Shown here: positions 45,936-51,236 of the stretch, piece after piece
Position numbering within the stretch: the first letter of the stretch is position 1
How the letters are laid out: each line of letters opens with the position of its first letter
Source of the DNA: an uncultured Desulfobacteraceae bacterium
GTDB lineage: Bacteria > Desulfobacterota > Desulfobacteria > Desulfobacterales > UBA5852
Assembly: GCA_913060875.1 (NCBI GenBank)
Contig: CAJXSL010000010.1
Coordinates: 62,001 to 126,000 of the forward strand
DNA: 64,000 nucleotides
Direction: 5' to 3'
Position numbers and translations under genes: made by a program
Notes under the pieces: model-generated
Told to the model about the DNA's origin: nothing
Database searches by the model: none
The model's input: the letters and a program-made list of their open reading frames with translations, nothing else

Positions 45936-46658
45936 TCACAAGAGCTTTGCATTGATCCGCCCCATGGCGGCCATGAAATCTTCACGGATTTGGCGGGCAA
46001 AGGGATTGAACCGGTGCATGTCCTGGAACAGTTGCCAGGTGTCGTGCTCCACGACTTCCAGCGTGTAGGTCAGGCGGCGATACCCTTCCGTATCGATGCG
46101 GAGCCGATCGGCGCCGAATTCCGCCAGCGATCGACCGATAAAATGGGTCAAAGAAAGACTGATGGCGATCTGGCGGTCGTGCTCTTCAGGGGATGATTCA
46201 ATGACGTCCAGTCCCCTCCCCCGCAGGTAGAGGCGTATTTTTCGGTAGATGACCTCCGGTGTGGTGACATTGCAGAGGACGATTTTGCGATCCTGAAGCG
46301 AATCGGCGGCACTGTCCGGGCCGAACATGGGGTGGGTCCCCAGGATGCCGACATGATCCGGCAGACGTTGCTGCATCCACTCCAGCGGGTATTTTTTGAC
46401 GGAACATACGTCGATGACCACGGCATCATGGGCAAGCATGGGCGCGATTTTTTCCAGCGCAGGACGCATGGCGCTGATGGGCACGCACAAGATCACATAG
46501 GGCTGGGCGCAGACCTCTTCCAGAGTGGCTTTGGAGGCCCCCACAGCTTCAATCGCGGCCGCCGGCTGGCTGTTCGAATAGACCAGGACCCTGCAATCCT
46601 CGGCCAAATAGCGCGCTGTCAGGGCGCCAAATCGCCCGAATCCGATAATACCGATCAT
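45936..46658 (-). CDS. tyrA: Prephenate/arogenate dehydrogenase family protein
   Basis: 240 residues, short for TyrA but containing the NAD domain (IGIIGFGRFGALTARYL, residues 3-19), the catalytic-region LGTHPMFGPDSA with its His, and a truncated helical dimerisation part. There is no ACT or chorismate mutase domain. TyrA oxidatively decarboxylates prephenate (or arogenate) towards tyrosine. It overlaps the upstream aminotransferase gene by 4 bp. Placement as last gene of an aro operon with a Tyr-rich leader fits a tyrosine role. Confidence 0.88.
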   Translation of the reverse strand: MIGIIGFGRFGALTARYLAEDCRVLVYSNSQPAAAIEAVGASKATLEEVCAQPYVILCVPISAMRPALEKIAPMLAHDAVVIDVCSVKKYPLEWMQQRLPDHVGILGTHPMFGPDSAADSLQDRKIVLCNVTTPEVIYRKIRLYLRGRGLDVIESSPEEHDRQIAISLSLTHFIGRSLAEFGADRLRIDTEGYRRLTYTLEVVEHDTWQLFQDMHRFNPFARQIREDFMAAMGRINAKLL

Positions 46659-47785
46659 AAAATGTCCTTCATTCTCTGAAAGCCTTTGGACAACCGTCCG
46701 GTGCTGGTGGCAAAAGAAATCCGGATATGGCCGGGCGCTCCGAAAAACGTCCCGGGCACGACGGCCACATCGGCTTTTTCCAGCAGATAGCGGGCCAGGG
46801 CCTGGTCGTCGCCGAAACGCTTCTGGTGTCGGCTGATGGCGGGAAACAGATAAAAGGCGCCCTCCGGGGCGATTAAGTCAAACAGCCCCCTACTTGCTTC
46901 CACAGCCAAATCCCGCCGTTTTTCAAACTGCCGGCGCCTCTGGGTCAACCTTTCCGCAGGCACTCGGGTGGCCGACAGGGCGCCATGCTGGGCAAACGAG
47001 CAGATGTTGCCGGTCAAATGACTCTGGATGGTCGTCAGACGCGCAATCATTTCATTCGGTGCCACTACATACCCGATGCGAAAGCCCGTCATGGCATAGG
47101 TCTTGGAAAAACTGCGTGCCATGATCAACTGCGGCCTGATTTCAGGAAAGGCGAACGGGCTGACGAAAACACTGTCCCCATAGACGAACGCGGCATAGGC
47201 CTCGTCGGAAATCAGCCAGAGATCGTTCTGTCGACAAATGGCGATGATCTCCTCGATGGAATTTCTGTCGTATACCGCTCCGGTGGGGTTGTTGGGCGAA
47301 TTGATCAGGATGGCCACGGTTCGTCCGGTCACGGCCTGGGCCATGGCATCGGTGTCGAGTTGGTGCTGCACGGTATCGACCATTACCGGCACACCACCCG
47401 CCAGTCTCACCTGATGCTGAAAACTGACCCAGCAGGGATTGGGTATGATCACCTCCTGGCCGGGATCGCAGATGGCCTGAAAGATTTCGAACAGTCCCTG
47501 TTTGGCGCCGTTCGTGATGAGGACATTCCGGGGGCCGTAGCCTTCGAAGTCAGCCGCCAGAGCGTCTTTCAATGCCGGCAGGCCGGCCACCGGTCCGTAA
47601 CGGGTGTGCCCGGCTTCCAATGCCTGGTGGGTGGCATCCATCACCTCGCCATCGACGCCGAAATCCGGTTCCCCCACGGCAAGGTCGATGATATCCCGGC
47701 CCTGGGCACGGAGTTGCTGGATCAGCGTGGTAAAGGCAACGGTTCCGGATGAGACAATATGATTAAACTTATCGGATAGATACAT
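46655..47785 (-). CDS. Class I PLP aminotransferase (aspartate/aromatic type)
   Basis: 376 residues of fold-type I. SPNNPTG (163-169), SDEAYAAFVYG and SFSKTYAMTGFRIGYV with catalytic Lys228 are the class I motifs. Members act on aspartate, aromatic amino acids or prephenate. Being translationally coupled to tyrA (4-bp overlap), it most likely transaminates 4-hydroxyphenylpyruvate, phenylpyruvate or prephenate; a general aspartate aminotransferase role is also possible. Confidence 0.9.
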   Translation of the reverse strand: MYLSDKFNHIVSSGTVAFTTLIQQLRAQGRDIIDLAVGEPDFGVDGEVMDATHQALEAGHTRYGPVAGLPALKDALAADFEGYGPRNVLITNGAKQGLFEIFQAICDPGQEVIIPNPCWVSFQHQVRLAGGVPVMVDTVQHQLDTDAMAQAVTGRTVAILINSPNNPTGAVYDRNSIEEIIAICRQNDLWLISDEAYAAFVYGDSVFVSPFAFPEIRPQLIMARSFSKTYAMTGFRIGYVVAPNEMIARLTTIQSHLTGNICSFAQHGALSATRVPAERLTQRRRQFEKRRDLAVEASRGLFDLIAPEGAFYLFPAISRHQKRFGDDQALARYLLEKADVAVVPGTFFGAPGHIRISFATSTGRLSKGFQRMKDIL

Positions 47786-47882: not shown

Positions 47883-48962
47883 TCACCCCCTCATCTTTTG
47901 CCGTAAAACAAAATCGCCAATAACCAGGGCGGCCATGCTTTCGACAATCGGAACCGCCCTGGGCACTACGCAGGGATCATGCCGTCCCTTGGCTTCCAGT
48001 ACAGCGGGGGCACCGCTGAAGTCCACGGTTTCCTGGGGCCGTTTGATGGTGGCCGGCGGTTTAAAGGCGACCCGGAAGAGGATCGGCGCGCCGCTGCTGA
48101 TGCCTCCCAGGGTTCCGCCGCTGTTATTCTTTGAAGGCACCAGGTCGTCGCCCTTTTGCTTAAACGGATCGTTGTGAACCGACCCCCGCATGCGGGTTCC
48201 GGCAAATCCGGATCCGATTTCAAACCCTTTGGTGGCCGGAATGGACATCATGGCCTGAGCCAGTTTGGCTTCCAGTTTGTCGAAGACAGGTTCCCCAAGC
48301 CCCACCGGGACGTTACGGCAAACACAGCTGACAATGCCCCCGATGGAGTCGCCTTCTTCCTTGAGTCGGAGGATCAGCTTTTCCATTTCATGGGCGCTAT
48401 GGTCATTCGGGCAACGCACGGTGAATTGGTCCACCTTGTCACGGGCAATGGTTTTGACATCCACCGTGTCATTTTCGACCGACCCCACCGCACTCACCCA
48501 GGCCACGATATCGATCCCAAACTGGTCGCGCAGGAATTTATCGGCAATGGCGCCTGCGGCCACCCGCCCGATGGTCTCCCGGGCGCTGGATCTTCCCCCG
48601 CCGCTGCTGGCCCGGATGCCGTATTTTCGCTGGTAGGTGAAGTCGGCGTGCGAAGGCCTTGGGATGTCCTGCATGGACTTGTAGTCACTCGGTATCTGGT
48701 CTTTGTTGGCCACCAGCAAACCGATGGGGGTGCCTAGCGTCAACCCGTTTTCCACACCGGACAGGATCGTCACCCGATCCGCTTCCTGCCGGTCCGTGGT
48801 CAGCCGACTCTGGCCGGGACGGCGCCGGTCCAACTGGGGTTGGATATCCTTTATGGTGAGGGCCAAACGGGGCGGCACCCCATCGAGGATAGCGCCGACC
48901 CCCTTGCAATGGGATTCGCCGAAAGTGGTGACCCTTAAAAGGGTGCCGAAAGTACTGGACAT
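47883..48962 (-). CDS. aroC: Chorismate synthase
   Basis: 359 residues, normal length. It converts EPSP to chorismate with reduced FMN. Motifs: [17 protein letters not shown] (signature 1), [22 protein letters not shown] (signature 3), and [16 protein letters not shown]. Located after aroA in the aromatic operon, separated by a CACGAAG-type repeat element of about 120 bp. Confidence 0.97.
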
Positions 48963-49133: not shown

Positions 49134-50402
49134 CTATCTGAAAAGCGATGCATACACCTCCCAGAACGATGGAAAGGATTTTTCCACACAAGCCGGGTTG
49201 CGAATACGCGTTCCCGGCGCCCGCAAACCGGCCACGGCAAAGCTCATAGCGATCCGGTGATCATTATAGGTTTCGATTTCCGCTGCTCGGGGTTGTCCTC
49301 CCACGATGCTGAGATCGTCCCCGGTGCTTCTGGTTTCAATCCCCATGGCCTTGAGTTCCTGCATGACGGCATCCAGGCGGTCGCATTCCTTGGCCCTGAG
49401 ATGGGCCACATTGCTAATGCGGGTCGTCCCCTCGGCAAAGGCCGCGACGACAGCCATGGTCGGCACCATGTCGGGCATATCCGCCATATCCGCTTCGATG
49501 GCCCTTAATCGTCCTCCCGAAACGGATATCCCGTCAGGACGAATGCTTACGTCGCACCCCATTTTTTCAAAAAGGGACAGAATAGCTACGTCACCCTGCA
49601 GGGAATGGCCGCTGATCCCCATAACCTTGATGGTCTTCCCGGTAATGGCACCGGCGGCCCAGAAATAGGACGCATTGGAAACGTCGGATTCCACGTCATA
49701 GGCCCCGGGCCGGTAGGTTTGTTCACCAGGAACATCAAAATGGTCATAACCTTTGCGTTTCAGGGTCACACCAAATCGGTGCATGATATCGACGGTCAGA
49801 TCCACATAGGGTCTGGACACCGGTCCTTTCAGGACATCGATTTGCAAACCCTCGCGCGTGAGCGGTGCCATCAACAGCAGCGACGACAGGAACTGGCTGC
49901 TGATCGAGCAGTCGATGCCCAGTGAGCCGCCTTTGACGGCGCCCCCGTTGATGACGAGCGGGGGACACCCGTTTCGATTCACGGATTGTACCGGAACGCC
50001 GATCTGGGTCAGGCTGTCGATCAGGGCCTGCACCGGGCGCTCCTGCATGCGGGAGGTCCCGGTCAGGGTATAGGCCCCTTCTCCAAGAGCGGCGATGGAT
50101 ATCAGCAGACGCATGGATGTGCCGGAATTGCCAAGGAAAACGGGTTGCTCACAAGGTCGGAATCGGCCGCCGAGGCCCTGGACCTTAATACATGCAGGCC
50201 GGACATCCATCAAAACGCCCATTTGCTGCAACGCCTTCATGGTCAATTGGGTGTCTTCGCTTTCCAATGCGTTGGATATGGTGGACGGCCCATTGCCCAG
50301 CGCGGCGGCAATCAGCACCCGATGGGTGTAACTTTTTGATCCCGGTATCCTGACGGCCGTATCGGTTATCGGCTGTGAAGGCACTGTGAATATGGGAGAC
50401 AA
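49134..50402 (-). CDS. aroA: 3-phosphoshikimate 1-carboxyvinyltransferase (EPSP synthase)
   Basis: 422 residues. Starts with TTG at 50402, supported by a perfect GGAGG eight to nine bases upstream; no in-frame ATG is better placed. PGSKSYTHR (20-28) and LGNSGTSMRLL (90-100) bind phosphoenolpyruvate/shikimate phosphate, and NDHRIAMSF lies near the C-terminus. It catalyses EPSP formation from shikimate 3-phosphate. First structural gene after the attenuation leader at 50.42-50.59 kb, so its transcription should respond to charged tRNA-Tyr and perhaps tRNA-Trp. Confidence 0.96.
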   Translation of the reverse strand: MSPIFTVPSQPITDTAVRIPGSKSYTHRVLIAAALGNGPSTISNALESEDTQLTMKALQQMGVLMDVRPACIKVQGLGGRFRPCEQPVFLGNSGTSMRLLISIAALGEGAYTLTGTSRMQERPVQALIDSLTQIGVPVQSVNRNGCPPLVINGGAVKGGSLGIDCSISSQFLSSLLLMAPLTREGLQIDVLKGPVSRPYVDLTVDIMHRFGVTLKRKGYDHFDVPGEQTYRPGAYDVESDVSNASYFWAAGAITGKTIKVMGISGHSLQGDVAILSLFEKMGCDVSIRPDGISVSGGRLRAIEADMADMPDMVPTMAVVAAFAEGTTRISNVAHLRAKECDRLDAVMQELKAMGIETRSTGDDLSIVGGQPRAAEIETYNDHRIAMSFAVAGLRAPGTRIRNPACVEKSFPSFWEVYASLFR

Positions 50403-50420
50403 AATATTTTCCTCCTGCAG

Positions 50421-50460
50421 AATAAAAAAGCCGCGGGCATTTTCGATTGCCCACGGCTTT
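50421..50460 (-). terminator. Attenuator terminator upstream of aroA
   Basis: A 12-bp stem (AAGCCGTGGGCA / TGCCCGCGGCTT, one G-U pair, 8-nt loop ATCGAAAA) is followed by TTTTTTATT. It ends 19 bp before the aroA start codon and 24 bp after the leader-peptide stop, so it must be read through for aroA expression. Confidence 0.88.
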
Positions 50461-50483
50461 GCATTTTTCCAGCGAAATTAAAT

Positions 50484-50555
50484 TCAGCGCAACCACGGAC
50501 GGGGACGGATTTCCGGCCAGGCATAATAATAGTAGCTGTCCACACGTCGCGTCAT
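50484..50555 (-). CDS. Tyr-rich leader peptide of the aro operon
   Basis: A 23-residue frame: MTRRVDS, then four consecutive Tyr (TAC TAT TAT TAT at 50534-50523, residues 8-11), then AWPEI, RPRP, and WLR before TGA. Two Trp codons are at residues 13 and 21; there is no Phe. A purine-rich AGAGAGAAG lies about eight bases upstream of the ATG. It starts about 35 nt after the predicted transcription start and ends 24 nt before an intrinsic terminator. Four Tyr in a row in so short a peptide is the hallmark of an attenuator control region. Confidence 0.85.
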   Translation of the reverse strand: MTRRVDSYYYYAWPEIRPRPWLR

Positions 50556-50596
50556 TCTTGTTTCTTCTCTCTTCAGTGGTTGGGTGCGCCTCAATT

Positions 50597-50625
50597 TCAG
50601 TAGATAATCACTTGAAATTTGTCAA
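50597..50625 (-). promoter_or_regulatory. Candidate promoter of the aro leader
   Basis: Perfect TTGACA (50625-50620), a 17-bp spacer and TACTGA (50602-50597), a weak -10. It lies just downstream of the stop codon of the VOC-protein gene and would start transcription near 50590, in front of the attenuator. Confidence 0.55.
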
Positions 50626-50630
50626 GACAT

Positions 50631-51236
50631 TTATTCTGCTTCAGGCGGCGCACAGTTGCTTTCATCCAGCAGAACCCGGCCTTCTCCCGGGTATACGGCG
50701 TGATTAGAGGCAAACGTCGGTGGGCCGGGATCAGGCCACCGCCCCGACTGAGGGTCACTGCCCTCACGTGCCAGGGGGGACGGATCTTTGTCCGCCATGC
50801 AGGGGCTGATCCTGAGATCGACCGTGTCCACCGGCCAACTGAACTCAATGGGGATATTGTTGGGGTCAAAGGTATAGATGGAATGGATAAAACCGTGATC
50901 GATCACTTCCGAAACCCATTGTTCCGCCGCTTCCAGACAATGTTTCAAATGCCACAGATCCTCCTTGCGAGCCACTTCGAAGGAAATATGATCGAATGCG
51001 AAAGCACCCCGGACCGGCACCCCATGATCTTTCTCAGGCAAAGGCTCGACACCGGGCCATTCGAAAAAAGCGATCATGTCGTGGGCCGATATTTCAAAAA
51101 AATAGTGCCGGTACCCCGGTCGCCCCAAACCGGCCACCAACCGCATGCCCAGCAGGTCGCGCCAGAAAGCGATTGTGGCATCGATGTCGCCGGTGGCCAT
51201 GGCCAGGTGATTGATGCCGGTGAAGTTGATTTTCAT
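50631..51236 (-). CDS. VOC-fold (glyoxalase/dioxygenase superfamily) protein
   Basis: 201 residues. The first 130 form two beta-alpha-beta-beta-beta modules: GINHLAMATGDIDATIAFWRDLLGMRLV, HYFFEI, FDHISFEV, and SIYTFDPNNIPIEFSWP. His (HLAM), Glu (FFEI), His (DHISF) and Glu (IEF) sit where glyoxalase-type proteins bind a metal. The last 60 residues are Pro/Asp-rich and probably disordered. Enzymatic reaction unknown; lactoylglutathione lyase, methylmalonyl-CoA epimerase or dioxygenase-like roles are all possible. Confidence 0.85.
   Translation of the reverse strand: MKINFTGINHLAMATGDIDATIAFWRDLLGMRLVAGLGRPGYRHYFFEISAHDMIAFFEWPGVEPLPEKDHGVPVRGAFAFDHISFEVARKEDLWHLKHCLEAAEQWVSEVIDHGFIHSIYTFDPNNIPIEFSWPVDTVDLRISPCMADKDPSPLAREGSDPQSGRWPDPGPPTFASNHAVYPGEGRVLLDESNCAPPEAE

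Follow-up and report, generated by a model that had tools for sequence, protein, structure and literature searches.

Classical leader-peptide attenuation is taught from the trp, his, phe, leu, ilv and thr operons, whereas the response to tyrosine is usually ascribed to TyrR or to T-boxes. In Escherichia coli, pheL-pheA and pheM-pheST use Phe codons to control a gene of the Phe branch, and trpL-type leaders use Trp codons to control the trp operon. The pheL attenuator is summarised in PMC11802643, and the same source describes the Corynebacterium glutamicum leader peptide AroR, with the codons Phe-Tyr-Phe, which is reported to respond to Phe, Tyr being without effect (Neshat et al. 2014, via PMC11802643). 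Around its Table 7, PMC1173090 gives a putative attenuator ahead of the Desulfovibrio vulgaris aroA'-aroB'-aroQ/pheA-aroF-tyrA-trp supraoperon; this attenuator was taken from a predicted-structure database, and that part of the paper mentions neither a leader peptide nor a codon run. In Acholeplasma, the uORFC-13-1 motif has been proposed as a uORF attenuator on aroF, the first shikimate gene (PMC8632094). A survey from 2005 placed tyrosine under T-boxes and phenylalanine under attenuators (PMC1262725).

In this report, we describe a locus in a 64,000-nucleotide stretch of DNA from an uncultured Desulfobacteraceae bacterium (the window) where, judged from the sequence, a ribosome-mediated transcription attenuator with Tyr control codons very probably governs an aroA-aroC-aminotransferase-tyrA operon. 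The locus shares with pheL-pheA and pheM-pheST an aromatic codon run and a biosynthetic target, and is predicted to use the same kind of terminator/antiterminator switch, but differs from them in its codons and in the pathway branch that it serves; it follows the same logic as the trpL type, of which the window genome has its own Trp version, but is distinct from it in both codons and operon. Like C. glutamicum aroR-aroF, it places an aromatic-codon leader peptide before a shikimate-pathway operon, with ribosome-mediated attenuation as the probable mechanism here, whereas that system concerns a DAHP synthase gene in another phylum and has three codons instead of a run of four Tyr codons (PMC11802643). 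The D. vulgaris supraoperon, as given around Table 7, is a further likeness, a predicted attenuator before a tyrA-bearing aromatic operon in a deltaproteobacterium (PMC1173090). The Acholeplasma motif resembles our locus as a proposed attenuator of a shikimate gene but has Phe codon(s) and a different RNA, and belongs to the Mollicutes (PMC8632094). The Tyr-specific T-boxes of Firmicutes resemble the predicted behaviour of our locus in monitoring how far tRNA-Tyr is charged and in using termination to control Tyr genes; however, their RNA binds the tRNA directly, without a leader peptide.

RESULTS

Organization of the leader region and its operon

A first-pass annotation of the window had placed a promoter, a Tyr-rich leader, an intrinsic terminator and the aroA Shine-Dalgarno one after another on the minus strand, and our analysis confirmed this order (TTGACA, leader ORF, terminator, Shine-Dalgarno), with coordinates identical or close to those first assigned. 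Upstream lies a VOC (glyoxalase-like) gene on the same strand, ending at 50631. The -35 element TTGACA (50620..50625, minus strand) matches the consensus perfectly; the best -10 candidate available, TACTGA (50602-50597), is weak, and a consensus scan did not score the region as a promoter. Because no good -10 follows the perfect -35, the leader promoter is only half-consensus; its -35 is conserved in the congener MAG130. A Shine-Dalgarno-like GAGAGAAG (50564..50571) precedes the leader peptide gene, MTRRVDSYYYYAWPEIRPRPWLR*, which runs for 23 codons from an ATG at 50555 to a TGA at 50484 (50484..50555) and contains a run of four Tyr control codons (codons 8-11, 50523..50534) and two Trp codons. 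Trp codon 13 (50517..50519), a possible second control codon, keeps its position in MAG130; Trp codon 21 (50495-50493) lies inside the predicted antiterminator 5' arm. This arm (segment 2, GUCCGUGGUUGC) was assigned by computed folding to 50489..50500. Segment 3 (50449..50462), its 3' partner, overlaps the terminator 5' arm, and the equivalent helix of a related leader family, described below, covaries. The terminator hairpin (50427..50460, about -20 kcal/mol) has 13 bp, eight of them G-C, followed by TTTTTTATT, and its T-run extends to 50421; the aroA Shine-Dalgarno AGGAGG occupies 50411..50416. Since the T-run and the aroA start lie 18 nt apart, too close for a promoter to fit, transcription of aroA must cross the terminator. 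The tract TAYTAYTAYTAY (TAY x4) has a single occurrence in the 64-kb window, against 0.03 expected in shuffles, and a YYYY run within a short, Shine-Dalgarno-led ORF followed by a terminator likewise occurs once, versus 0 in 60 dinucleotide-shuffled windows.

All four downstream genes lie on the minus strand. They are aroA, encoding 3-phosphoshikimate 1-carboxyvinyltransferase (49134..50402; TIGR01356, 453 bits; PF00275), with a TTG start at 50402; aroC, encoding chorismate synthase (47883..48962; TIGR00033, 475 bits); a class I/II aminotransferase gene (46655..47785; PF00155), likely of the aromatic/aspartate type and assigned above the subfamily level; and tyrA, encoding prephenate dehydrogenase (45936..46658), which is clear by Pfam (PF02153) and scores 136 bits against NF006409, under the NCBIfam equivalog cut-off of 310. 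A search of the aroA-aroC gap on the window strand found no terminator-like site, and the four genes are probably co-transcribed.

Conservation of the locus in congeners

The nearest relative with sequence is the congener MAG130 (L003 = G003; L003 and L083 have identical upstream sequence, are one genome and were counted once), whose aroA is 73% identical to that of the window. MAG130 retains the gene order around aroA, the promoter stretch TGTCTTGACAAATTTCA.G.GATTAT.TAC (also written CTTGACAAATTTCA.G.GATTAT.TAC), a leader of likewise exactly 23 codons (MATQRNRYFYCIWLGIPPGSWCR) and a terminator stem, AAAGCCGTGGG, that matches the window's. Residues common to the two leaders are mainly aromatic (Y8, Y10, W13 and W21). 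Where the window has YYYY, MAG130 reads Y-F-Y-C, then I-W; thus, the YYYY run is specific to the window genome, and what is conserved is the frame, with Y8 and Y10, and an aromatic, mostly Tyr, character. At the corresponding position in two other congeners (G001 and G004), after the VOC gene and ahead of aroE-aroA, there is a terminator and the aromatic leader is absent; the G002 contig ends too near this site and was placed outside the comparison. At the congener loci L123 (about 1990-2030) and L124 (about 520-555), a terminator and a TTGACA lie between the VOC gene and aroE, again without an aromatic leader.

When the 450 nt ahead of aroA were scanned in relatives, no convincing Tyr-rich leader turned up outside the window genome, because in most relatives aroA is inside a longer operon. 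With aroA internal in most Desulfobacterales, the regulatory region sits at the operon head, and a search at operon heads instead of aroA revealed a leader family.

Four aromatic leaders in the window genome

Besides the YYYY leader before aroA-aroC-aminotransferase-tyrA, the window genome carries three others. At L159, the leader ..GEFFGRFFFGFRSVHPAS (EFFGRFFF), with a codon run of Phe only, precedes a second DAHP synthase gene and pheA (prephenate dehydratase with a chorismate mutase region); at L161 (G000:C20), ..KQWWWWHLT stands before trpE-trpG; and at L121, MQSLADKYYFYFGFYFYFAGLPAVP (YYFYFGFYFYF) stands before DAHP synthase-aroB, just after aroE. MAG130 holds counterparts of all four. 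This match between codons and end product in four leaders gives strong support to ribosome-mediated attenuation and is the strongest single argument for tyrosine sensing by the window leader.

Some details of the sister loci may be added. The L159 leader (G000:C6, about 392-493) is accompanied by two successive terminator-like hairpins, and counterparts of this Phe leader occur in MAG130 (L158) and, by sequence, also on the minus strand of L040. Both L161 and L160 (G003) have a WWWW leader with terminators before trpEG.

An aromatic leader family in Desulfobacterales

The leaders at operon heads, for example MVHNRSGRYYFYYWYFFNTGLPGVR, MPGRHFQFNFWFFNYYYYYFYGKGLPGE and MTRFTTGRYFYFYCFFSKGLPGAR, are each followed by a GCCGTGGG...CCCACGGC terminator, and nearly all of them have the RNA segment GGUCUGCCC at the leader end, where it could base-pair with GGGCAGACC of the terminator 5' arm. 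In an alignment of 31 leaders (model R1) that left out those of the window and MAG130, the antiterminator was formed in 91.8% of cells, against 25-50% when slid by 1-3 columns, and four of its nine pairs were changed on both sides; the terminator was paired in 96.7% of cells, 21 of which were changed on both sides. Within this alignment, and by slide and covariation controls that ignore kinship among the sequences, the antiterminator and terminator helices both covary. Segment 2 is read L-P (LPG) in Desulfobacterales and V-C-P, in a different frame, in Syntrophales; its retention despite two reading frames indicates that the RNA is conserved and not the peptide.

A covariance model of the 31 leaders matched 153 of 194 Desulfobacterales genomes, which included 113 of the 122 good-quality ones and represented 101 of 120 genera; in a phylum sample it matched 133 of 297 genomes. 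Weak phylum-level matches (E 1e-4 to 1e-2) are not taken as family members. All of the best 30 loci in the order have an aromatic-run leader, as does the great majority of 29 new phylum loci, and the next gene in those best 30, if on the contig, nearly always encodes ADTH synthase, DAHP synthase or chorismate mutase-prephenate dehydratase. Most leaders mix F, Y and often W. With duplicate alternative reading frames excluded, Trp codons are present in only one of 11 leaders before chorismate mutase-prephenate dehydratase and in all 15 before type I-beta DAHP synthase. At L121 and in many other members (e.g. L007, L049 and L070), a second terminator hairpin, GGCCGTGG...CCACGGCC, comes right after the first, so that two terminators in series are common in the family. 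L186 (1429 and 1623) and L192 (699 and 934) each have a tandem pair of aromatic leaders before a single ADTH synthase gene.

The window leader has an F/Y/W run (YYYY..W) before an aromatic-pathway operon, as in the family. The family model scores it at 26.4 bits (E 0.0026 in 150 kb, a rough calibration, and with the terminator giving part of the score) and scores the MAG130 leader at 33.5 bits. The C-terminal GLPG/VCP segment encoding GGUCUGCCC is absent from the window leader, which ends in PRPWLR and has a different segment 2; kinship with the family is therefore suggested by sequence and not more firmly indicated. The genome's other leader at L121 has GGUCUGCC.

Folding of the leader RNA

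The whole window leader is more stable than shuffles (z -2.8), with the terminator supplying most of the difference. The computed antiterminator, 50500-50489 with 50462-50449, overlaps the helix first drawn by hand (50496-50488 with 50462-50452); measured against dinucleotide shuffles the computed helix has no extra stability (z about +0.3), and a claim for it from folding energy was dropped because the shuffles do equally well. In MAG130, the antiterminator z reaches -2.2, for one stall position, and the window's pairing does not match that of MAG130 at every position. The anti-antiterminator proposed at 50589-50576 was set aside because MAG130 showed no 5' partner for it.

We then simulated a ribosome on the leader by hiding the RNA from about 15 nt before to 10 nt after the A site and folding the remainder up to segment 3. 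With one of Tyr codons 8-11 or Trp 13 in the A site, segments 2 and 3 pair at -14 to -19 kcal/mol, and this pairing is lost once the ribosome is beyond about codon 17-18, which means that full translation of the leader favours the terminator. The suggestion that the Trp codons add a second input thus applies to Trp 13, where a stalled ribosome leaves the arm free, and not to Trp 21, which is inside segment 2, so that stalling there should not antiterminate. The aroA Shine-Dalgarno is outside the alternative helices. For the window itself, we infer the antiterminator step from the family.

DISCUSSION

Our data suggest a model whereby transcription would begin near 50590, the predicted start site, with immediate translation of the leader peptide. 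Given an ample supply of charged tRNA-Tyr, the ribosome would reach the stop codon and cover segment 2, leaving segments 3 and 4 to form a terminator immediately ahead of aroA. In a shortage of charged tRNA-Tyr, the ribosome would stall at codons 8-11, segment 2 would be free to pair with segment 3, no terminator would form and aroA-aroC-aminotransferase-tyrA would be transcribed. Ribosome stalling and the response to Tyr are predictions of this model. The Tyr attenuator that the first-pass annotation had read from the letters is supported by the conservation in MAG130, by the sister leaders and by the covarying helices of the family.

A less likely but real possibility is that the leader answers to aromatic amino acids in general, or to two inputs. 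In that case all of Tyr, Phe and Trp would matter in this lineage, the YYYY run would be a chance drift of a mixed run and Trp 13 would be a second input. This reading draws on the Y-F-Y-C-I-W of the MAG130 leader and its two retained Trp positions, on the mixture of F, Y and often W in most family leaders, on the dependence of all three amino acids on aroA and aroC, and on the masking result that a ribosome at W13 keeps the antiterminator arm free; Tyr codons nevertheless dominate the window leader, tyrA is in the operon, and Phe and Trp are served by separate leaders elsewhere in the genome.

That the hairpin merely terminates the VOC gene, and that the Tyr-rich ORF is spurious, is improbable. 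A perfect and conserved -35 stands between the VOC gene and the leader, the gap from the T-run to aroA leaves no space for a promoter, the frame and aromatic positions are retained in MAG130, and sister leaders are present in the same genome; these observations outweigh the location of the VOC gene on the same strand, ending at 50631, and the leaderless terminators that follow it in G001 and G004. Leaders that act through translation, Rho-dependent termination or a function of the peptide do exist, as tnaC and peTrpL illustrate (PMC7298713), and the window antiterminator is not strong. For this locus, however, such an action in place of intrinsic-terminator attenuation is improbable, given a textbook terminator, an aroA Shine-Dalgarno that takes no part in the alternative helices and a family segment 2 kept across frames (LPG versus VCP), pointing to RNA over peptide function.

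The window leader is best seen as belonging to a Desulfobacterales family of aromatic (Phe/Tyr/Trp) attenuators, within which it is tuned to Tyr. It is likely that in Desulfobacterales, and probably in other Desulfobacterota, the whole aromatic pathway is under an undescribed Phe+Tyr+Trp attenuator family, and that where operons are split the codon run is re-tuned to each product, giving a true Tyr attenuator here alongside others for Phe, for Trp and for Phe/Tyr. Comparison with Rfam yielded nothing above threshold, either for the window stretch or for seven relatives, nor a T-box match in the window stretch even at E up to 5, and the aromatic leader family is not in Rfam. In the open-access papers that our literature search covered, we found neither a Tyr-run leader nor the Desulfobacterales family described; the main surveys of proteobacterial attenuators are among the subscription papers outside that scope. 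To this extent, the view that Tyr-run leaders are undescribed stands, qualified by the Tyr codon within the Phe-Tyr-Phe of C. glutamicum AroR.

The mechanism is known, and the Tyr-run leader is a variant of it; of broader significance are the aromatic leader family and the four-way division in one genome. At the window locus, tyrosine appears as the sensed amino acid of leader-peptide attenuation, and one genome seems to split aromatic control among four leaders through codon choice alone. Across the family the codon mix tracks operon content, and this natural series makes the summing of several tRNA signals by one leader directly testable; the family also gives regulation for a group of sulfate reducers for which we found little described.

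A few leaders stand ahead of other kinds of gene. In G119 (L198), the leader MVDYQPDRCFFWYYLGGDRSAWGMP is ahead of a shikimate kinase gene. Phe-rich leaders occur in G084 before a phenylacetate-CoA ligase gene (L200) and before a gene for a Liv-type ABC binding protein (L201), and these two and a third, L202 (G077), have a common ending, FFFKKSxH or FFTKSTH, suggesting from sequence that attenuation may extend to aromatic salvage or uptake.
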